The position numbers were made by a program, and so were the translations under genes. A stretch of 64,000 bases of DNA from Aquabacter cavernae (lineage in GTDB: Bacteria > Pseudomonadota > Alphaproteobacteria > Rhizobiales > Xanthobacteraceae): NCBI RefSeq assembly GCF_003993795.1, contig NZ_RWKV01000015.1, positions 62,001 through 126,000 of the forward strand. The letters run 5' to 3'. The notes below the pieces were generated by a model, which made no database searches, was not told where the DNA came from, and saw only the letters and a program-made list of their open reading frames with translations. Shown here piece after piece: positions 259-62,700 of this stretch; the first letter of the stretch is position 1, and every line of letters starts with the position of its first letter.

Positions 259-1563
259 TCAGACGCCGGCGGGAACTTGGCCCGTCGTGCGCGCCGCCGC
301 TTCCGCATTGAGCCGGTGATGCCGGGCGAGAAGTGGCTTGAGAATGAAGAGAGCCGAGAAGGCAGCCGTCAGGTCCATGGCGGCGACGATATAGAGCACC
401 ACAGCCCAGGAGCCGGTCGCCTCCATGATGAGGTTCGCCACCGGCACCAGCAGGGCCGCGAAACCCTTGGCCGTGTAGAGCACGCCGTAGATCTTGCCCA
501 CATGGGCGCTGCCGAACGTGTCCGCCGCCGTGGCCGAGAACAGCGAGTAGACCTCGCCCCAGGCCAGGAAGACGATGCCCGACAGGATGATGAACGCCCA
601 CGGATTGTGACCGAACGTGCCGAGGGCGACGATGCCGATGCCTTCCATGGCGAAGGCGAAGAACATGGTCTTCTCACGGCCGATATGGTCGGAGATCCAG
701 CCGAACAGCGGACGGGAGATGCCGTTCAGGATGCGGTCCAGCATCAGCGCGAAGGGCAGCGCGGCCATGGCGAAGAAGTAGAGGTTCACCTGAACATGCT
801 TCACACCGAGATCTTCCGCGATGACGCCCAGCTGGGCCACCGCCATGAGGCCGCCTGTCACCGTGCAGATGAACATGAACAGCATGACCCAGAAGACCGG
901 AGTCTTGAGCGCCTCGGTGAGCGTGTAGTCGCGGCGGCTCTGGGCCACCGTGCTGGAGAACACCACCTCGCCCTTCTGCGGCGCGCGCAGGAAGCCGGCG
1001 GCGAGCAGAATGACCAGGCCCTGGATGCAGCCGAACAGGAAGAACACGTCACTATACGAGGTCGTCTTCAGCATGTTGGCGATGGGCATGATGGTGAGCA
1101 CGGTGCCCGAGCCGTAGCCGGCGGCAGTGAGGCCCACCGCGAGGCCGCGCTTGTCCGGGAACCACCGCAGCGCGCTGTTGACGCAGGTGGAATACACGCA
1201 GCCGACGCCGATGCCGCCGATCGCCGCGCCCACATAGAAGCCGGTGAGCGAGGTGGCATAGGAGTTCACGATCCACGACAGGCCGGTGAAGAGACCGCCC
1301 ACCAGAACCACGGCGCGCGGGCCGTACTTGTCGATGAAATAGCCCTGGACCGGCGAGAGCCAGGTCTGCACCACCACGAAGACGGTGAAGGCCACCTGGA
1401 TGGAGGCGCGGCTCCAGCCATTGGCGTTCTGAATCTCCGGGACGAACAGCGTCCAGGAATATTGGATGTTCGCTGCCGCAACCATACAGACAACGCCGGC
1501 GATCAATTGAAGCCAGCGATTGGCGGACACCTGCGCCACGCCACCACTTTGAGATGAAGCCAT
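259..1563 (-). CDS. oxlT: MFS oxalate/formate antiporter family transporter
   Basis: This 434-residue, 12-segment membrane protein belongs to the OxlT branch of the major facilitator superfamily, which exchanges oxalate for formate across the inner membrane. The family pattern is clear: an N-terminal NIQYSWTLFVPE segment, FIDKYGPR in loop 2-3 and SRPLFGWISDHIGREKTM after TM8. Charged residues in the pore half include R277/R284 and K366 (in YTAKG); OxlT uses an Arg in TM8 and a Lys in TM11 to bind oxalate. I chose the ATG at 1563, which is preceded by TAGGAAAC, over an in-frame start near 1659 that has no ribosome site. The gene lies 92 bases downstream of frc on the same strand, so the two are probably co-transcribed. 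Net direction of transport cannot be read from sequence. Confidence 0.85.
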   Translation of the reverse strand: MASSQSGGVAQVSANRWLQLIAGVVCMVAAANIQYSWTLFVPEIQNANGWSRASIQVAFTVFVVVQTWLSPVQGYFIDKYGPRAVVLVGGLFTGLSWIVNSYATSLTGFYVGAAIGGIGVGCVYSTCVNSALRWFPDKRGLAVGLTAAGYGSGTVLTIMPIANMLKTTSYSDVFFLFGCIQGLVILLAAGFLRAPQKGEVVFSSTVAQSRRDYTLTEALKTPVFWVMLFMFICTVTGGLMAVAQLGVIAEDLGVKHVQVNLYFFAMAALPFALMLDRILNGISRPLFGWISDHIGREKTMFFAFAMEGIGIVALGTFGHNPWAFIILSGIVFLAWGEVYSLFSATAADTFGSAHVGKIYGVLYTAKGFAALLVPVANLIMEATGSWAVVLYIVAAMDLTAAFSALFILKPLLARHHRLNAEAAARTTGQVPAGV

Positions 1564-1655
1564 GTTTCCTACCCTTTGAGCACTTTTATTTTTTTGAAGC
1601 GTGAAGCCGGCGCGCCCGTTTGTTGTTTTCCCTCCGAGCGCCGGCCGATTGGAAC

Positions 1656-2885
1656 TCAAACCGCGCCGTTGGCGCGCATGCTCGCAATATCCTCCACGCC
1701 ATAACCAAGGCGGGCGAGGACATCCTCCGTGTGCTCGCCCAGCAGCGGCGCCCGTTCCACGGGAACATCGCTGTCGGAGAGGCGGATGGGAGAGGCGACG
1801 GTCACATAGGTGCCGCGCTCGGGATGGGGGATCTCCACCAGGAAGCCGCGCTCATAGAGAGAGCGGTCCTCGATGATGTCCTTGGTGGAGAGGATGGGGC
1901 CGCAGGGAACGTCGATGGCGTTCAGCGCCTTCATAACTTCAAACTTGGTGCGGTTGCGCGTCCAGCCTTCGATGAGGCCGAAGCAGGTCTCCAGCCGCTG
2001 GGCGCGGGCTTCATGGGTGGAGAAGCGCTGGTCCTCGATGAGGTCGCGCCGCCCGATGAGCCGCATGAGCGGGGCCCAGCCCTGGGGCTGGATGATCACG
2101 TAGCAGTAATCATTCTCCCCGCCGGGCGCGCAGCGCAGGGCCGCGCCCGGCTGGCCGCCGCCGGAGGCATTGCCGGTCCGCGGCACGCAATCCCCCGCCA
2201 CGGTGCTGGGATATTCCGGCAGGGTGCCGGCGCCGAGCCGCTGCTGGTCGCGCAGCTTCACGCGCAGCAGGTTCATCACGCAATCCTGCATGGCCACTTC
2301 CACCCGCTGGCCACGCCCCGTGACCGTGCGCTGGTAGAGCGCCGCCAGGATGCCCGCCACGCAATGGATGCCCGTGCCGGTATCGCCGATCTGGGCGCTG
2401 GTGGCGGTGGGCGGGCCGGAGCGCCAGCCGGTGGTGCTCATGGCCCCGCCCATGGCCTGGGCGATGGTCTCATAGGCCTTCGCCTCCACCCCGCTCTCGT
2501 CGGCGAAGCCCTTGATGGACGCATAGATAAGGCGGGGATTGAGCGCGGACATGCGCTCCCAGGTGAGGCCCTGGCGGTCCAGCACCCCGGCGCCGAAATT
2601 CTCCACCATCACGTCGCTCTGTTCCACGAGGCGCAGCAGCGCTTCCTGGCCCTGGGTCGACTTGATGTTGAGCGTGACGCTCCGCTTGTTGGCGTTGAGC
2701 ATCGTGAAATAGAGACTGTCCACATTGGACTTGTCGCGCAGTTGGGAGCGCGTGATATCGCCCCGGCGCGGCATCTCCACCTTGATCACGTCCGCCCCCA
2801 TCCAGGCGAGCAATTGCGTCGCGGATGGTCCGGACTGCACGTGCGTCATGTCGAGCACGCGGACACCGTCAAGTGCCTTGCCCAT
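1656..2885 (-). CDS. frc: Formyl-CoA:oxalate CoA-transferase (CaiB/BaiF family)
   Basis: This 409-residue class III CoA-transferase moves CoA from formyl-CoA to oxalate, giving oxalyl-CoA and formate in the cytoplasm. It tracks the Oxalobacter enzyme closely: THVQSGPSATQLL near the N-terminus, NVDSLYFTMLNANKRS at 54-69, the catalytic Asp at 168 (in AQIGDTGTG), VAMQD..NLLRVKLRDQQRL, and the mobile glycine loop SGGGQPG at 241-247. Length is close to the family norm of about 428. The ATG at 2885 follows GGGGTAGAGGC. Its partner, oxalyl-CoA decarboxylase (oxc), is not in the window. Expression is probably under the GntR-type regulator at 3805 through the site at 3002-3015. Confidence 0.9.
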   Translation of the reverse strand: MGKALDGVRVLDMTHVQSGPSATQLLAWMGADVIKVEMPRRGDITRSQLRDKSNVDSLYFTMLNANKRSVTLNIKSTQGQEALLRLVEQSDVMVENFGAGVLDRQGLTWERMSALNPRLIYASIKGFADESGVEAKAYETIAQAMGGAMSTTGWRSGPPTATSAQIGDTGTGIHCVAGILAALYQRTVTGRGQRVEVAMQDCVMNLLRVKLRDQQRLGAGTLPEYPSTVAGDCVPRTGNASGGGQPGAALRCAPGGENDYCYVIIQPQGWAPLMRLIGRRDLIEDQRFSTHEARAQRLETCFGLIEGWTRNRTKFEVMKALNAIDVPCGPILSTKDIIEDRSLYERGFLVEIPHPERGTYVTVASPIRLSDSDVPVERAPLLGEHTEDVLARLGYGVEDIASMRANGAV

Positions 2886-2966
2886 GCCTCTACCCCTGGA
2901 ACCTGCCCTGTAGCGCCAGTCTGTGCCGGCTTTTTCAAGGTGCGCACCGCCGAAGCGGCCCTGGAC

Positions 2967-3015
2967 CCAGAGGGTTTCCCCTCTGGAATTACGTCTATTG
3001 GATTACGTATACCAG
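2967..3015 (-). promoter_or_regulatory. frc upstream region: hairpin, direct repeat and putative GntR operator
   Basis: On the frc coding strand, CTGGTATACGTAAT lies 117 bases before the start codon (plus-strand 3002-3015). The half site ATTACGT also occurs at 2988-2994, giving a direct repeat with 14-base spacing. An 8-bp perfect hairpin (CCAGAGGG, loop TTTC, CCCTCTGG) sits at 2967-2986, in the likely leader. The 14-mer recurs exactly at 3604-3617 in front of the regulator gene, in the same orientation relative to the gene it precedes. Confidence 0.6.
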
Positions 3016-3076
3016 ACGAAAAGAGATAACACGGCCCTCTCCCTCCGGCAAACGGATTTACGCCGAAAGTCGAAGA

Positions 3077-3541
3077 TCAGCGCAGCGCGGACAAAGCAGC
3101 GCCCATGGTGCTGACGCCCGGCTGCACGTCCGCCTCTTCCTCATGCAGGTAGTGGCGGATCAGGTCGGTGGCGCTGATCACGCCCACCAGGCCGTGCTCC
3201 TCGATCACCGGCAGGTGGCGCACTTCATGCTCGTTCATGAGGCGGAGCACCGTGCCGATGCTGTCCGACAGGCGGCAGGAAATGACGGCGCGCTTGATGA
3301 AGCTGGCCACCGACAGGCTCGCTGTGGTGGAGCCGTTGTCCACCAGAGCGCGGGTCACGTCGCGCTCGGAGAACACGCCCACCACCGTATTACCCTCGGT
3401 GCGGCACACGTCCTTCACCACCACGGAGGAGATGTTCTCGCGCTTCATGATGAGCGCGGCGGTTCCCACCGTTTCGTTCATCCGCACCGTGATGATGCGG
3501 GCATGGCGCTTCTCGCGCAGGATGTCATCGACCGTGATCAT
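3077..3541 (-). CDS. Two-CBS-domain protein
   Basis: This 154-residue soluble protein is a tandem CBS pair (about residues 8-65 and 75-132) with nothing else attached. Conserved pieces include VGVFSERDVTRAL in the first domain and VRHLPVIEEHGLVGVISATDLI in the second. Such pairs usually bind adenosine nucleotides or related ligands and control a partner protein. I chose the ATG at 3541 (MITVDDIL), preceded by GAGAGGGAAC, over an upstream in-frame start. The gene lies between frc and the GntR regulator, shares the regulator's upstream region in divergent orientation, and may run on into frc. Its role in oxalate use is inferred from position only. Confidence 0.8.
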   Translation of the reverse strand: MITVDDILREKRHARIITVRMNETVGTAALIMKRENISSVVVKDVCRTEGNTVVGVFSERDVTRALVDNGSTTASLSVASFIKRAVISCRLSDSIGTVLRLMNEHEVRHLPVIEEHGLVGVISATDLIRHYLHEEEADVQPGVSTMGAALSALR

Positions 3542-3603
3542 GTGGCGTTCCCTCTCGTTTAACGCCCGCGGTTGAACCCGGGTCGGCTTACATTCCAACC
3601 ATG

Positions 3604-3617
3604 CTGGTATACGTAAT
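3604..3617 (+). promoter_or_regulatory. Putative GntR operator between CBS gene and regulator gene
   Basis: CTGGTATACGTAAT is an exact copy of the site upstream of frc. It lies 63 bases before the leftward CBS-domain gene and 188 bases before the rightward regulator gene, so it could control both. The core GGTATAC is near-palindromic, as FadR/FCD-type sites often are. A weaker TACGTAT core occurs at 3731-3737, nearer the regulator start. Confidence 0.6.
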
Positions 3618-3804
3618 ACGCCGTGTCAAGGGATGGAATTGCTCCAGGCCCAATGTTGCATTGCGGAATAAGTGCCGAAGCGCTTCTCTCAACATGGGGT
3701 TACTTGCCGAACCCTGGAGAAGATGCGATCTACGTATGATGTATTTCGCTTCTTCAGGAAGCGGACGGTAGGATGGCGCTGAGCGGCATCGGGCAAGGGT
3801 TCAG

Positions 3805-4494
3805 ATGACGTACCAAGATATCAACGTGAAGCCGATCGAGACGGAATCGAGCTTCCGGATGAAGGCGTACAAGGCCCTGAAGGCGGCCATCATGGAGATG
3901 GACATCTACAGCCACTCCGAAGAAATCCGTCTGGAAGAGCGTCAGCTCTCCGAGAAGCTGGGCGTCTCCCGCACCCCCATCCGCGAGGCCATGACGCTGC
4001 TGGAGCAGGAAGGCTTCGTGCGCTCCGTGCCGCGGCGCGGCATCTTCGTGGTGCGCAAGACCAGGCAGGAAATCCTCGAAATGATCACCGTGTGGGCGGC
4101 GCTGGAGGCCATGGCGGCCCGCCTCGCCTGCGAGGTGGCGAGCGAAGGCGACATCCGCAAGCTGCGTGAGAATGTCCAGGCCTTCGCCAATCGTGACCCC
4201 GAAGAGTTCGTCTCCGAATATTCCGAAGCCAACCTCGCCTTCCACAAGCAGATCATCCGCATGTCCGGCTGCAGCCTCATCGCCGAGACCACGGAGAGCC
4301 TGTTCCCGCACATGCGCGGCGTGCGCAAGCTGACCATCGGCCAGGATCACCGCGCCCAGCGCTCCATCCTCGACCATACCCGCATCGTGGAAGCCATCGA
4401 GAAGCGGGACGCGGACCTTGCCGAGCGCCTGGTGCGCGAACACACGCTGGGCCTCGCCCGGCATGTGGAGGAGCATGGCGAGTTCCTGAACTGA
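3805..4494 (+). CDS. GntR family regulator, FadR/FCD subfamily
   Basis: This 229-residue protein has a winged helix at about 18-85, with recognition helix LGVSRTPIREAMTLLEQEG, followed by an all-helical FCD ligand domain at about 90-222. The His residues in ANLAFHKQII, LDHTRIVEAI and VREHTLGLARH fit the metal-binding set typical of FCD domains that sense small carboxylates. Position next to frc and the oxalate carrier suggests it senses oxalate, formate or an acyl-CoA; this is inference. It probably regulates itself and the leftward genes through the two 14-bp sites. The ATG at 3805 follows AAGGGTTCAG. Confidence 0.85.
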   Translation: MTYQDINVKPIETESSFRMKAYKALKAAIMEMDIYSHSEEIRLEERQLSEKLGVSRTPIREAMTLLEQEGFVRSVPRRGIFVVRKTRQEILEMITVWAALEAMAARLACEVASEGDIRKLRENVQAFANRDPEEFVSEYSEANLAFHKQIIRMSGCSLIAETTESLFPHMRGVRKLTIGQDHRAQRSILDHTRIVEAIEKRDADLAERLVREHTLGLARHVEEHGEFLN

Positions 4495-4579: not shown

Positions 4580-4870
4580 TCAGGCGTTGGGGTTCTTGAA
4601 CACCCATTTCCAGGGCAGAACCTCGACGCTCTCGAACAGGCCGGCCTTGGCGAACGGATCGTTCTCCAGCAGCGCCTTCGCTTCCGCGGCGCTCTGCGCC
4701 TCCACCACGAGCATGGAGCCGATCATGCGCGACCCATCCTCGGTCACGAGCGGGCCGCCGATCGCCACCTTGTCCGCATTGGCGTTCAGGAATTCCAGAT
4801 GCGCCGGACGCGCCTCGGCGCGCACATGCTCGTGATTCGGCTTGTCCTTCTTAAGAACGACGAACAGCAT
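4580..4870 (-). CDS. YciI family protein
   Basis: This 96-residue single-domain protein has the YciI ferredoxin-like fold pattern. It contains RPAHLEFL near residue 21, the GGPLV turn, GSMLVVEAQSAAEAKALL and a C-terminal WKWVF. Family members are small dimeric proteins of poorly defined enzymatic role, often with a conserved His in the pocket; the His in RPAHL fits. The ATG at 4870 has a strong GGGAGGGT site. It lies 54 bases downstream of carA's stop end, on the opposite side of the terminator from the GntR gene, but this says little about function. In many Hyphomicrobiales a YciI gene sits near other housekeeping genes. Confidence 0.8.
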   Translation of the reverse strand: MLFVVLKKDKPNHEHVRAEARPAHLEFLNANADKVAIGGPLVTEDGSRMIGSMLVVEAQSAAEAKALLENDPFAKAGLFESVEVLPWKWVFKNPNA

Positions 4871-6898: not shown

Positions 6899-8803
6899 AT
6901 GCGCTTTCCGCCCTCCTTCCTCGATGAGATCCGCACGCGCCTGCCGGTGTCGGATGTGGTGGGACGGCGGGTGAAGCTGAAAAAGCAGGGCCGCGAGTTC
7001 GCCGGGCTCTCGCCGTTCAATCCCGAAAAGACACCGTCCTTCTTCGTCAACGACCAGAAGGGCTTCTATCACTGCTTCTCCTCGGGCAAGCACGGCGACG
7101 TGTTCGACTTCCTGATGGAGACCGAAGGCCTGCCCTTCGGCGAGGCGGTGGAGCGCCTTGCCTCCATGGCGGGCCTGTCCCTGCCCGAAGTGACGCCGGA
7201 GGCGAGCGCCCGCGAGGAGCGGCGGCGCACCCTGCATGAGGTGCTGGCGCTCGCCGCAACCCATTTCGCCGAGACCCTCCAGGGCCGCTCCGGCGCCAAG
7301 GCGCGCGGCTATCTCTCCGACCGCGGCCTCGGCCCCGCCACCCAGAAGCGCTTCCGCCTCGGCTATGGCGCGGGCGAGCGGTTCCACCTGAAGGAAGCCC
7401 TGGGCAAGGCCGGGGTCGGCGTTCCCGACATGGTGGAAACGGGCCTGCTGGTCTCGGGCGAAGGCATCGCCGTTCCCTATGACCGGTTCCGCGACCGGGT
7501 GATGTTTCCCATCACGGACCTGAAGGGCCGGGTAGTGGGCTTCGGCGGGCGGGCGCTGGAGAAGGATGTCCAGGCGAAGTATCTCAACTCGCCGGAGACC
7601 CCCCTCTTCCACAAAGGCTCCCTGCTTTATAACGGCTTCGAGGCGCGCGCCGCCGTGCACAAGGGTGCGCGGCTCATCACCGTCGAAGGCTATGTGGACG
7701 TGATCGCCATGGTTGAGGCGGGCTTCGAGGGCGCGGTGGCGCCGCTCGGCACCGCCCTCACCGAGGACCAGCTCCAATTGCTCTGGCGCATGGCGGACGA
7801 GCCGACCCTGCTGTTCGACGGCGACAAGGCGGGGCGCCGCGCCGCCTTCCGCGCCATCGACATCGCCTTGCCGCACCTCAAGCCCGGCAAGAGCCTGGTC
7901 TTCGGCGCCCTGCCCGAGGGGCAGGATCCCGATGATTTGATCCGCCGCTCCGGCCGGGACGCCATGGAGGATGTGCTGGGGCGCTCCGAGCCGCTGGCCG
8001 CCATGCTCTGGGCGCGGGAGACGGAAAGCATCAACCTGGATACGCCCGAGCGGCGCGCGGCCCTGGAGGCGCGCCTTGCCGAGCTGGTGTCCGCCATCGC
8101 CGACGAAAGCGTGCGCCGTCATTACCGGCAGGATCTCAACGAGCGCATGCGCCGCCTGCTCTCCCCCGCCCCGGCGGCGGGCGTGTGGTCCGGCGGGCGG
8201 CCGCGCCAGGGCCAGGGCCAGGGCCGCGGCAAGCCTTTCGCGGCACCGCCCCTCGCCCCCAAGGGCGGCGATCTTGCCCGCACCTCCGCCATTGCGGGCG
8301 GTGCTTCCGTGATGCCGCGCAATGAGGCGTTGCTGCTGTTCTGCCTGCTCAACCACCCCTGGCTGATGGATGAGACCGGCGAGGAGATCGCCGCTTTGCC
8401 CTTCGCCAATGCGGATGCGGGGCGCCTGTGCCAGGCCACGCTGGAAGCCCATATGCTGGCCGACGGCGAAGTGGATCTGCCCCCGCTCCCGGCGGATGTG
8501 GAGGGCGTCGCGACCCGCGTGCGGGCGCTCGCCAACCCCCGTATGGACTGGCCAGCATATCCAGATACCGGCAGAGAGGATGTTCGCCTCTGGTGGCGCC
8601 AGCGCACGGCCTTGCATCTGAAGGCTTACGCGCTATCTAGAGAGCTGAGGGATGCCGAGCAGCAATTGGGTGACGACCCGAGCGAGGCAAATTTCGCGTG
8701 GTTGCGGGATGTGCGCGAGCGCTTGTCCGCTGCTGAAGGAACGGAGGCCCTGGTCGAGGGGTTCGGAGCGGCATCGGGTCGCTCATCTGCGCGCTCCATA
8801 TGA
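6899..8803 (+). CDS. dnaG: DNA primase
   Basis: This 634-residue primase makes RNA primers for replication. Domains in order are an N-terminal CHC2 zinc-ribbon region (1-100), the catalytic core with TOPRIM (ITVEGYVDVIAMVEAG, then LLFDGDKAGRRAA), a Pro/Gly/Gln-rich linker near 425-445, and a helical DnaB-binding tail. The zinc ribbon is odd: the four ligand positions are S38, N41, C59 and S62 instead of Cys, His, Cys, Cys, so zinc is unlikely to bind. The surrounding EKTPSFFVNDQKGFYHCF frame is otherwise intact. To my knowledge a similar loss occurs in relatives such as Bradyrhizobium. It forms the usual macromolecular-synthesis pair with rpoD, 181 bases downstream. Confidence 0.95.
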   Translation: MRFPPSFLDEIRTRLPVSDVVGRRVKLKKQGREFAGLSPFNPEKTPSFFVNDQKGFYHCFSSGKHGDVFDFLMETEGLPFGEAVERLASMAGLSLPEVTPEASAREERRRTLHEVLALAATHFAETLQGRSGAKARGYLSDRGLGPATQKRFRLGYGAGERFHLKEALGKAGVGVPDMVETGLLVSGEGIAVPYDRFRDRVMFPITDLKGRVVGFGGRALEKDVQAKYLNSPETPLFHKGSLLYNGFEARAAVHKGARLITVEGYVDVIAMVEAGFEGAVAPLGTALTEDQLQLLWRMADEPTLLFDGDKAGRRAAFRAIDIALPHLKPGKSLVFGALPEGQDPDDLIRRSGRDAMEDVLGRSEPLAAMLWARETESINLDTPERRAALEARLAELVSAIADESVRRHYRQDLNERMRRLLSPAPAAGVWSGGRPRQGQGQGRGKPFAAPPLAPKGGDLARTSAIAGGASVMPRNEALLLFCLLNHPWLMDETGEEIAALPFANADAGRLCQATLEAHMLADGEVDLPPLPADVEGVATRVRALANPRMDWPAYPDTGREDVRLWWRQRTALHLKAYALSRELRDAEQQLGDDPSEANFAWLRDVRERLSAAEGTEALVEGFGAASGRSSARSI

Positions 8804-44813: not shown

Positions 44814-45590
44814 TCACTTCAGAAAGTCTTCAACGAGACCGGCGAACGCATCGGGCATTTCCACCACCGACATATGGGCGCAATCCAGCTCCTCGCGCCG
44901 GGCGCCGGGCAGGTGCGCGGCGACGAGGTCGCCCCAGGCGGGCGGGGTTGAGCGGTCGCGCGCGCCGATGATCACCATGGCCGGCACCTTCACGCGCTTC
45001 AGATCCTCGCGGAAATCCATGTCGCGCATGGCGCAGCTCGTGCCCATATAGCCGCTCGCCGGGGTGTCCGTGATCATGCCGCGCACCCTGGCGACGGCGG
45101 CCGGGTCGGCCGCGCGGAATTCCGGCGTGAACCAGCTCTCGATCACCGCATCCGCCACGGCGTCGAGGCCCACCTTGCGGATATGGCGGATGCGCCCTTC
45201 CCACAGGCGCGGCGGGCCCGCATGGGCGGTGGAATTGGCGATCACCACCCGTTTCAGGCGGTGGGGCGCGTTCAGCGCCATCCATTGCCCCACCATGCCA
45301 CCCAGAGACAGGCCGCACAGATGGGCGGACGGCAGGTTCAGCGCATCCAGGATGTTCAGGAGATCGCGGCCGAGATCGCCCATGGAATAGACCGCGTCCG
45401 GCGCCGTGCTCTGCCCATGGCCGCGCGCATCATAGCGGATGACGCGGAAGCGGCGCGCGAGGCGCGGGACGATGGGATCCCACAGTTCCAGCCGCGTGCC
45501 GAGCGAATGGGCGAGAACCAGGGGCGGGGCCGCCTCCGGTCCCTCAATGGCGACGCGGAAACGCTCTCCGGAAAAGGTGAGGACGGACAC
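44814..45590 (-). CDS. 3-oxoadipate enol-lactonase-like alpha/beta hydrolase
   Basis: This 258-residue alpha/beta hydrolase resembles PcaD, which opens 3-oxoadipate enol-lactone in the protocatechuate pathway. The nucleophile is Ser in LCGLSLGGMVGQ, with acid Asp in IGARDRSTPP and His in DCAHMS; YDARGHGQST and TPASGYMGTSCAMRDMD are PcaD-like. The start is GTG at 45590 with a GAGGG site. No other pca gene is present, so the assignment is by similarity only. GGTATACC at 45608-45615 upstream may be a regulator site. Confidence 0.8.
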   Translation of the reverse strand: MSVLTFSGERFRVAIEGPEAAPPLVLAHSLGTRLELWDPIVPRLARRFRVIRYDARGHGQSTAPDAVYSMGDLGRDLLNILDALNLPSAHLCGLSLGGMVGQWMALNAPHRLKRVVIANSTAHAGPPRLWEGRIRHIRKVGLDAVADAVIESWFTPEFRAADPAAVARVRGMITDTPASGYMGTSCAMRDMDFREDLKRVKVPAMVIIGARDRSTPPAWGDLVAAHLPGARREELDCAHMSVVEMPDAFAGLVEDFLK

Positions 45591-45699
45591 GGGAAACCCT
45601 CAGGTATTCGGTATACCCGATCTAGCGCCTCGCGGTTCCCGAGGAAAGAGGCAGGGTCTTCGCCGGCCTCTGCCGCTTGAGGCCGTCGCGCGCCGAAAG

Positions 45700-59792: not shown

Positions 59793-62700
59793 ATGACCGA
59801 TCCCGTGACCGCGGGCGACGATCCGCTCTGGTACAAGGACGCCATCATCTACCAGCTCCATGTGAAGTCCTTCTTCGATTCCAACAATGACGGGATCGGC
59901 GACTTCGCGGGGCTCATCTCCAAGCTGGACTATATCGCCGACCTCGGCGCCACCGCCGTGTGGCTGCTGCCCTTCTATCCCTCTCCCCGCCGGGACGACG
60001 GCTACGACATCGCGCTCTATGAAGGCGTGTCGCCGGACTACGGCACCATGGAGGATGCGCGACGCTTCATCGAGGCCGCCCATGCGCGCGGGCTTCGCGT
60101 CATCACCGAACTGGTGGTGAACCACACCTCGGACCAGCATCCCTGGTTCCAGGCCGCCCGCAACGCGCCCAGGGGCTCGCCGGAGCGCGACTTTTATGTC
60201 TGGGCGGACGACGACCAGGGATACCAGGGCACGCGCATCATCTTCCTGGACACCGAGAAGTCCAACTGGACCTTCGACCCGGTGGCCGGGCAATATTTCT
60301 GGCACCGCTTCTATTCCCACCAGCCGGACCTGAACTTCGACAATCCGGTGGTGCTGGAGCGGATTTTGTCCGTGATGCGCTTCTGGCTGGATATCGGCGT
60401 GGACGGCCTGCGGCTTGACGCGGTGCCCTATCTCATCGAGCGCGAGGGCACCTCCAACGAGAACCTCGCCGAGACCCACACCATCCTGAAGCAGGTCCGC
60501 GCCCATCTGGAGGAGCGCTATACCGGCCGCATGCTGCTGGCCGAGGCCAATATGTGGCCCGAGGACACCCAGCAATATTTCGGCGAGGCGGGCGACGAAT
60601 GCCACATGGCGTTCCACTTCCCCCTCATGCCGCGCATGTACATGGCCATCGCCAAGGAAGACCGCTTCCCCATCACCGACATCCTGCGCCAGACGCCCGC
60701 CATACCGGACGCCTGCCAATGGGCCATCTTCCTGCGCAACCATGACGAGCTGACGCTGGAAATGGTGACCGACAGCGAGCGGGACTATCTGTGGAGCGTC
60801 TATGCCTCGGACCGGCGCGCCCGCATCAATCTGGGCATCCGCCGCCGCCTCGCGCCCCTGCTGGAGCGGGACCGGCGCCGGGTGGAATTGATGAACGCGC
60901 TGCTGCTCACCATGCCAGGCACGCCGGTCATCTATTATGGCGACGAGATCGGTATGGGCGACAACATCCACCTGGGCGACCGGGACGGGGTGCGCACGCC
61001 CATGCAATGGTCGCCGGACCGAAACGGCGGCTTCTCCAAGGCCGATCCCGAGCAACTGGTGCTGCCGCCCATCCAGGATCCGCTCTACGGCTATTTCGCC
61101 CTGAATGTGGAAGCCCAGCAGCGCGACCCGCACTCCCTGCTCAACTGGATGCGGCGCTCGCTCGCCACGCGCAAGCGCCACATGGCCTTCGGCCGGGGCG
61201 CCTTCCGCCTGCTCTATCCCGGAAACCGGAAGATCCTCGCCTATCTGCGCACCCATGGGGAGGAGACGATCCTGTGCATCGCCAACCTGTCCCAGACGCT
61301 GCAGGCGGTGGAACTGGACCTCTCGGAGTTCGAGGCGCGCGTGCCGGTGGAGATGGGCGGCTCGACACCCTTCCCGCCGGTGGGCCGCCTGCCCTATCTG
61401 CTCACCATCCCGCCCTACGGCTTCTATGCCTTCAACCTCTCGCTCGGCAGCGCGGAGCCCTCCTGGCACGCGCCCGCGCCGGAGCAATTGCCGGAATTCC
61501 TGACCCTGGTGCTGCGCGGCGGGCTTTCGGACCTTCTGTCGGCGCGCCACCGGCCGAGCCTCGAAGGCGAGGCGCTGCCCGCTTATGTGGGCCGCCGCCG
61601 CTGGCTGTCGGCACGCCATGAGGCGGTCCAAAGCGTGAAGCTCGCCTGGGCCATGCCGCTACCCAAGGCGGGCGAGGACGTGTTCCTCGCCGAGATCGCC
61701 GTGGAGCGGGCCTCGGGCACCGAGCATTACGCCATGCCGCTCGCCATCGCCTGGGAGGACCAGAACCCCTCGAACCTCGCGGTGCAGCTCGCTCTGTCGC
61801 GGGTGCGGCAGGGGCGGCGCGTGGGCTATCTCACCGATGCGCTGGCGCTCGACCTGTTGCCCCATGCGGTGATCCGCGGGCTGCGCCGCGCGGTGACGCT
61901 GGACCTGCCGGACGGCGGCGCGCTGCGCTTCATCTCCTCCGAAGCGCTCGACGCATTGGACATCCCGCCCGACGCGCCCGTCCAGCGCAGCGGCGTGGAC
62001 GAGGCGGTGTCGGTGCTCGATATCGAGGACTATGCCAGCTTCAAGGTGATCCGCCGCGCCCGCGCGGGTGCCCATCCGGTCTCGGAAATGGCGCGCCACG
62101 TCACAGCGCAGGGCTATGCCCGCACCGCGCCCTTGCTGGGCGAGGTGCAGCGCATGGACCCGCAGGGCAACACGGCGGTGCTCGCGGTCCTGCTGGGCTA
62201 TGTGCGCAGCCAGGGCGATGCCTGGAACTGGATCATCGACCAGTTGCGGCGCGCCCTCACCGCCGCCTCCCAGGGCGGTGGCGACATCGAGCAGGTGTTC
62301 GAGGAACAGTCGTCCGGCCTGATCCCGTTCGCGCGGGCGGCGGGCCGCAGCCTCGGGGAATTGCACGCCATCCTCGCCCGGCCCTCGCAGGATCCCGCCT
62401 TCCGTCCCCAGATGGCAGGGCCGGAGGCGGTGGAACGCTGGGCCGAGGACGCGCGCACGGCCCTGGACGGCGCGTTTGCCGCCCTGGAGACACTCCCCCC
62501 CGATGCGCCGGAACGGCCGACAGCCGACGCCATCCTGGCCGTCCGCGATCGGCTCATGAACGCCTGCGCCACGCTGGCGGGGTCCGGCGCGGGCGCGCCG
62601 CTCACCCGCGTGCATGGCGACTTCCGGCTGGAACGCCTGCTGGTGGCGGGCGGGGATGCCTTCGTGGCCGATTTCGACGGCCCCGCCGACCTTCCCCTGG

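Follow-up and report, generated by a model that had tools for sequence, protein, structure and literature searches.

Operators of the FadR subfamily of GntR-type regulators were described by Suvorova et al. 2015 (PMC4494728), and according to the main text of that paper 13 FadR-subfamily groups have an extra half-site close to the palindrome, at a distance of 7-12 nt from the centre of the site, and in a divergon with the regulator gene a single site tends to stand slightly nearer to the structural gene; the same main text describes no oxalate regulon (the term 'oxal' occurs 0 times). On the side of oxalate metabolism, ApbA2 of Cupriavidus necator, a PanE2 homologue, has been assigned a proposed role in the step between oxalyl-CoA and glyoxylate; mutants lacking it grow more slowly on oxalate, those lacking frc-oxc do not grow on it, and in the main text of this study GntR has 0 occurrences (PMC7486775). 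An oxalate GntR operator is likewise not described in the accessible portions of PMC8305402, PMC5987411, PMC7176365 and PMC12542648, and among the matches listed for the literature on oxalate-gene regulation, as far as their accessible text goes, there was no paper on such an operator or on an oxalate GntR regulon. In its accessible parts, the literature searched says little on the regulation by which oxalate users among soil and plant-associated bacteria turn on these genes.

In the window, i.e. the whole 64-kb stretch of DNA analysed here, a preliminary description had put forward an exactly repeated 14-mer, upstream of frc and of a gntR gene, as the operator of an oxalate regulon. The operator-like element was confirmed, but neither the literal 14-mer nor the assignment of the copy at 3604 primarily to gntR could be maintained. 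Judged from the sequence, it is probable that both copies belong to one operator, GTATNNNGTATRCCA, to which the adjacent GntR/FCD regulator, and most likely its oxc-side paralogue, would bind, keeping the genes repressed until a pathway carboxylate appears. This is apparently a gene switch for oxalate use without earlier description; the core type itself is known from the FadR subfamily.

The repeated 14-mer and the conserved operator

The exact 14-mer CTGGTATACGTAAT was found at both places described earlier, 3002-3015 on the minus and 3604-3617 on the plus strand; as claimed, there is no third exact copy in the 64 kb (the only additional match with at most 3 mismatches, at 45606, has 3), and the half-site ATTACGT is repeated at 2988 and 3002, 14 bp apart. 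These two copies are also the only exact ones in the own genome (4,515,019 bases). The genome scan with the literal 14-mer and mismatches, which had been suggested as a check, gave 6 matches with up to 2 mismatches against 5 in the backwards control, i.e. chance level; since the mismatch matches stood at the level of the control, the literal 14-mer was replaced by a degenerate motif. A one-mismatch occurrence of this motif (GTATTCGGTATACCC, 45604-45618), about 14 bp upstream of the ORF 44814-45590 on the minus strand, is likely due to chance.

Exact repetition alone is weak evidence, since the window contains 629 distinct 14-mers, among them this one, in two or more copies. Two of these 629, again including this one, have at least 9 A/T, and resampled pairs of the two intergenic regions shared any 14-mer in 5 of 20,000 cases; resampled sequences, here and below, were drawn from the dinucleotide frequencies of each region and are not exact dinucleotide shuffles. 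It is the placement of both copies in short intergenic regions that counts, not the repetition. The 628 other repeated 14-mers and the control-level result of the literal scan could be taken as signs of a match by chance or composition without function, but the promoter spacing of the sites is kept in 16/16 and 15/15 loci and with the held-out matrix (see below) their scores were reached by 0/2000 resampled sequences, and we give this explanation a practically negligible probability.

Xanthobacter, Azorhizobium and Aquabacter loci have these genes in the same order, oxlT-frc-CBS-gntR, and in the comparison of 16 CBS-gntR and 15 frc upstream regions (own locus included) both 14-mers appear as short conserved blocks amid drifting DNA. 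On the minus strand the block of the CBS gene reads TTGACA-N17-CA[GC]NAT in 16/16 regions, with GTATTNNGNATAC within the spacer (GTATTACGTATAC in 4/16), and the block of frc reads TTGCNN-N14-TG-N-TANNNN in 15/15, with TGG[CT]ATAC 6-10 bp past the -10, the site being TGGTATAC in 4/15 and TGGCATAC in the rest. The exact 14-mer is not kept in the relatives; the denominator common to all sites is GTATNNNGTATRCCA, which consists of a GTATAC-type core and a GTAT half-site displaced by 7 bp. From these alignments the exact identity of the two copies is judged to be incidental, and the conserved entity to be the degenerate operator. The cores at 3007-3012 and 3607-3612 are GTATAC and agree with the palindromic GTM-N0-1-KAC of the FadR subfamily; in many relatives the core is GTATTC or GTATGC rather than GTATAC.

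Sites were scored with a held-out matrix whose training set comprised 15 sites from distant loci with a regulator of 58-74% identity. These loci had been chosen for a GTATAC in the vicinity of gntR, and within them TGGTATAC served as the core for picking the sites, so that the matrix is biased towards this core. The generic sigma-70 promoter and terminator scan of 2850-3850 listed nothing, and the promoters were read from conservation (Table 1). Operator 1, an exact match to the degenerate motif (22.7 bits, 0/2000 resampled sequences), fills the 17-bp spacer between the putative -35 and -10 of the CBS gene in 16/16 loci, this -10 being a poor one which agrees with TATAAT at only 3/6 positions. 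Operator 2, with one mismatch to the motif (19.0 bits, 0/2000), follows the putative frc -10 in 15/15 loci and starts at about +1/+2 of the putative frc transcript. The predicted 5' ends of the frc and CBS transcripts are at about 3016 and 3594, respectively. The CBS-domain gene (3077-3541, minus strand) lies between the two copies and was absent from the preliminary description, where the copy at 3604 had been assigned to gntR: it does stand upstream of gntR (about 187 bp), but its primary place is the promoter spacer of the CBS gene, about 62 bp upstream of this gene. The weak third box before gntR (9.5 bits, reached by 84/2000 resampled sequences) is a possible autoregulatory half-operator or may be the gntR -10 (TATGAT); the corresponding values for the weak own boxes of gntR2 and oxlT2 were 15/2000 and 325/2000.

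Table 1. Features of the oxalate locus and related sites (window coordinates, unless a fetched locus, L, is named)
Feature	Position	Strand	Remarks
oxlT, oxalate/formate antiporter	259-1659	-	TIGR04259 620.2 bits, cut-off 335
frc, formyl-CoA (oxalate) CoA-transferase	1656-2885	-	TIGR03253 578.5 bits, cut-off 504.2
Repeated half-site ATTACGT	2988-2994	-	14 bp from operator 2; poorly kept beyond the closest relatives
Operator 2	3000-3015	-	14-mer 3002-3015(-); core motif GGATTACGTATACCA 3000-3014 on plus strand
Putative extended -10 (TGT-TATCTC), frc promoter	3023-3028	-	TG-N-TA in 15/15 loci
Putative -35 TTGCCG, frc promoter	3046-3051	-	TTGC at fixed spacing, 15/15 loci
CBS-domain protein, 154 aa	3077-3541	-	Pfam PF00571 5.4e-22; operator 1 within its putative promoter
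Putative -10 CAGCAT, CBS-gene promoter	3601-3606	-	CA[GC]NAT in 16/16 loci
Operator 1	3604-3619	-	14-mer 3604-3617(+); core motif GTATTACGTATACCA 3605-3619 on minus strand
Putative -35 TTGACA, CBS-gene promoter	3624-3629	-	invariant in 16/16 aligned loci, always 17 bp from -10
Weak third box GTATGATGTAT upstream of gntR	3734-3744	+	RTAT[GC][AT]TGTAT in 15/16 loci, L008 differing
GntR-family regulator, FCD (FadR) subfamily, 229 aa	3805-4494	+	Pfam GntR 2.9e-13, FCD 1.7e-26
YciI gene	4580-4870	-	right-hand neighbour of the GntR/FCD gene
Small ORF without annotation	L115 6177-6416	+	own contig C15 ~60177-60416, just left of the window
oxlT2 leader element CCGTCACGGGCCGTTC	L115 ~7853-7878	-	just left of the window
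Palindrome TGCTGC-N3-GCAGCA	L115 6057-6071; L007 227; L009 974; L010 1974; L013 37; L014 64; L017 44; L114 14760		
Site upstream of nuoA	L117 4949-4963		relatives L158, L159, L160
Sites at mdh	L119 4544-4558; L143; L187 2600; L200 2532; L198 1426; L207 1447		

Regulon members in the own genome and in relatives

With at most one mismatch the degenerate motif gave 13 matches in the own genome against 6 in the backwards control, and five of the 13 are located in two oxalate loci comprising about 21 kb of the 4.5 Mb (binomial 3e-9, the span having been set after seeing the loci). Once the five oxalate sites are set aside, 8 matches stand against 6 controls, which is why the one-mismatch sites beside genes for, among others, an HxlR protein, an ABC transporter and a periplasmic-binding protein were attributed to chance. 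The site-bearing targets are the CBS gene, frc-oxlT (oxlT overlaps the 3' end of frc, and from this position the two probably form the same operon), a 79-aa small ORF, a panE-like gene and tctCBA-gntR2-oxc-frc-frc; on these five upstream regions the held-out matrix gave 19.0-25.0 bits, with 0/2000 resampled sequences reaching the score in each case. With the refined motif, the genome scan thus extends to the oxc cluster, to two further frc genes (a second and a third) and to a panE homologue. The panE gene is a fitting member, because deletion of ApbA2 slowed the growth of C. necator on oxalate in the experiments reported in the main text of PMC7486775. The membership of oxc, also foreseen earlier, holds in the own genome by way of the tctC site, which is about 4.6 kb away from oxc on its upstream side, but it is weak across relatives. 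Gene order suggests that the tctCBA-gntR2-oxc-frc-frc cluster is one transcript, and the held-out matrix gave no match in its internal gaps (oxc, frcC, frcB, tctB).

The frequency of the site was determined in 80 fetched loci and the own ones, where a score of at least 14 bits was counted if the site was no more than 320 bp from the head of the gene or operon; target genes were tblastn matches with E<=1e-12, some of the oxc matches being only 26-35% identical, and the counts are not independent, since single genera (Pandoraea, Xanthobacter) contribute many of the loci. A site is present upstream of the CBS gene in 23/23 evaluable loci, own included, and upstream of panE in 26/27 loci (28/29 alignment pieces, L033 and L052 being split), one panE having no 14-bit site; when L021, L022 and L025, which have a site in common with the training set, are left out, these counts become 20/20 and 23/24. 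For the other genes the values with and without a 14-bit site were as follows: frc 19/21 and 2/21, tctC 6/9 and 3/9, gntR 40/57 and 17/57, gntR2 15/25 and 10/25, frcC 14/29 and 15/29, oxc 20/49 and 29/49, oxlT2 12/31 and 19/31. The background is about 1% (1/194 window tiles, 2/164 tiles of other own loci, 4/530 resampled regions). In Inquilinus and Skermanella a single site separates gntR from panE and the CBS gene, which run in tandem in the opposite direction, and in G009 the order is oxlT2, site, CBS gene, panE; owing to these arrangements the CBS protein can be said to go with the site beyond the own family. Distant gntR-oxc or gntR-frc loci with a site were L031, L040, L049, L056, L059, L060, L063, L066 and L075. 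Altogether, in many genomes separate transcription units for oxalate use are preceded by the same site; some oxc, oxlT2 and gntR matches lack it.

The exact degenerate motif had 23 matches in 31 genomes against 4 control matches. In the own family there were 18 matches and 0 control matches, and 15/18 are at oxalate genes, the remaining ones being two upstream of mdh (G003, G013) and one without explanation (G013:C30); outside the family 2/5 matches lie by a tctC-like or a gntR/oxc/tctA-like gene (L124, L136). A homologue of the regulator (E<=1e-40) is carried by 20/31 genomes, namely by 12/13 motif-positive and 8/18 motif-negative ones (both in 12 genomes, only the motif in 1, only the regulator in 8, none of the two in 10), so that the exact motif is absent from 8/20 genomes with a homologue; the co-occurrence has a Fisher p = 0.007, computed over 31 genomes which are not independent.

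The surroundings of the small ORF contain further elements. A second MFS/oxlT-like gene (oxlT2) is situated directly left of the window and is followed by pgi, and the 79-aa frame lies between pgi and oxlT2, downstream of an operator. It has one hydrophobic stretch, similar frames occur in 7/7 aligned loci, with a C-terminal FPR[AG]F ending in 5 of these, and none of the 3 tested had a Pfam match. The leader of oxlT2 contains an invariant element able to form a hairpin, which occurs in 13/214 fetched loci, always ahead of oxlT2, while the own genome has a single copy; Rfam gave only two matches on L115 5900-8000, both to microRNA families far below the gathering scores, which were rejected. 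Furthermore, a perfect palindrome, TGCTGC-N3-GCAGCA, was observed in 8/14 of the scanned loci; in the seven cases from the pgi gap it precedes the operator by 18-19 bp, and near tctC it is about 120 bp off. It resembles the PhaR/AniA box of alphaproteobacteria, a hint of cross-talk with carbon storage.

The regulator, its paralogue and the proposed switch

The regulator exceeds the cut-offs of both GntR (PF00392, 49.7 against 27 bits) and FCD (PF07729, 93.5 against 24.3 bits) and is below those of all 19 NCBIfam models listed; its identity with NanR (70.2 against a cut-off of 260 bits, with one GGTATA per window site) or with PhnR of Burkholderia, the phosphonate regulator (TIGR03338, 109.2 against 271.5 bits), was rejected. 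The structure model has a pLDDT of 88.9, and the top fold matches listed are GntR-family regulators, with PmiR, a Brucella GntR and VanR Atu1419 as the nearest; the best PDB sequence match is the PmiR chain (6e-19). Among 45 aligned homologues, 58-97% identical to the window regulator, the recognition helix S55 R56 T57 P58, R60 E61 A62 (SRTP-REA), the wing P76 R77 R78 G79 (PRRG) and the residues N143, H147, H191 and H213 are invariant in 45/45. The latter four can be aligned with TM0439 (3fms/3sxy), and we take them to be the likely FCD metal ligands (pocket of Asp/Asn and three His). Oxalate, being a strong chelator, would be a suitable ligand for a metal-bound FCD pocket.

The paralogue GntR2 adjoins oxc on another contig and is 62% identical to the window regulator (GntR1), and one operator code is expected for both since the single recognition helix is invariant. 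GntR2 might even be the main or sole reader of the operator, or the two might be interchangeable, leaving GntR1 as a minor or specialised partner. The degree of identity and the common helix agree with this, as do G002 (72% complete), which has a 61% homologue and no GntR1 type of 86-100% and yet an exact panE site, and G009, where a single homologue of 53% without GntR1 is accompanied by two exact sites. However, the exact motif is kept in 6/6 of those genomes in the 31-genome set that carry GntR1 (at least 86% identity), and the frc-CBS-gntR1 block is intact in the fetched Xanthobacter, Azorhizobium and Aquabacter loci; we regard this reading of GntR2 as main, sole or interchangeable reader as somewhat doubtful, though worth serious consideration. 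It is far less plausible that another factor, e.g. an IclR/BhcR-like protein, owns the motif. An iclR gene does stand between the two sites of the second oxalate locus, between panE and tctC, but the motif recurs together with gntR at distant loci in whose fetched DNA (some flanks are short) the own iclR has no match, there is no iclR match beside the window locus either, and the GTATAC core fits the FadR-subfamily consensus GTM-N0-1-KAC published in the main text of PMC4494728; this explanation is very improbable.

In the reading we prefer, the adjacent GntR/FCD regulator, and most likely the oxc-side paralogue too, would recognise the operator. Without inducer the bound dimer would block the promoter of the CBS gene, where the operator lies between -35 and -10, and that of frc-oxlT, where it covers about +1 to +20, and it is from these positions that steric repression is predicted. 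A small pathway carboxylate (oxalate, glyoxylate or oxalyl-CoA) might fill the FCD pocket and cause the protein to release the DNA, upon which OxlT (exchange), Frc (activation), PanE (reduction) and Oxc (decarboxylation) would be made together, with the CBS protein and the small membrane protein alongside. The sites, their conservation, the promoter geometry, the co-occurrence with the regulator and the genes preceded were obtained from the sequence; we infer the binding, that it represses and does not activate, which inducer acts and how the two regulators share the work, and the release triggered by a carboxylate would be the economical model. That the CBS protein is an adenylate sensor is a guess from its domain.

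The position of the site is not uniform: it is 28-42 bp before the start codon at panE, about 109 bp at tctC and about 160-180 bp at nuoA, and FadR-subfamily proteins can activate. At some promoters the regulator might activate, or act in both ways, instead of being a plain repressor, but both window sites are in repressor positions (spacer and about +1), and we consider this unlikely.

Wider reach and comparison with known systems

The sites at nuoA and mdh were followed further because the same sites recur in relatives. Upstream of nuoA (complex I) the site GCATTATGTATGCCA or a close variant, 18.7-19.3 bits, was observed in 4/5 genomes of the genus, and in the other 24/28 genomes with a nuoA match there was no site of at least 13 bits within about 400 bp upstream. 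Operator-like sites precede mdh in the own genome, G003, G002 and G013, with held-out scores below 13 bits for the own genome and G003, 13.3 for G002 and 22.8 for G013, the only strong one; G017 and G027 have a strong site on the other side of the gene instead, about 75 bp past the 3' end of mdh. The membership of nuoA and mdh is a lead, not a result. It might be imagined that one code, served by two paralogous FCD regulators, ties the transport, activation, reduction and decarboxylation of oxalate to energy metabolism (nuoA in 4/5 genus genomes, mdh more weakly in 3/5 and strongly in one other genus), with the CBS protein, as candidate adenylate sensor, and the 79-aa membrane protein as standing parts; we hold this extended picture to be speculative and rather unlikely to be right as a whole.

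A conserved operator makes the regulon predictable in many genomes. The CBS protein and the small membrane protein are likely parts of it, both unstudied, and the regulator is a candidate oxalate-responsive component for biosensors.

Compared with the described systems, PmiR of Pseudomonas aeruginosa and VanR Atu1419 of Agrobacterium have the same fold as the window regulator (TM-score (query) 0.61-0.71), but the identity is low (24-28% over 210-230 columns) and they are named for other pathways. By analogy with the ApbA2/PanE2 route of C. necator, as given in the main text of PMC7486775, where a panE-like gene acts with frc/oxc, the panE homologue found here is predicted to work with these enzymes. 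With E. coli NanR and its (GGTATA)3 operator, insofar as the consulted part of PMC8012715 describes them, our system has in common the GntR-type repressor predicted here, the GGTATA unit, the direct-repeat character and the placement downstream of the RNA-polymerase site, whereas each window site contains one exact GGTATA unit and a GTAT-like unit displaced by 7 bp. The agreement is closest in type with the FadR-subfamily operators in the main text of PMC4494728: the GTATAC core fits their GTM-N0-1-KAC, an extra half-site near the palindrome is common to both, and the window operator follows the tendency of a divergon site to stand slightly nearer to the structural gene. In contrast to those operators, the displaced half-site here equals the core in conservation, and the palindrome frequently has a degenerate right arm.
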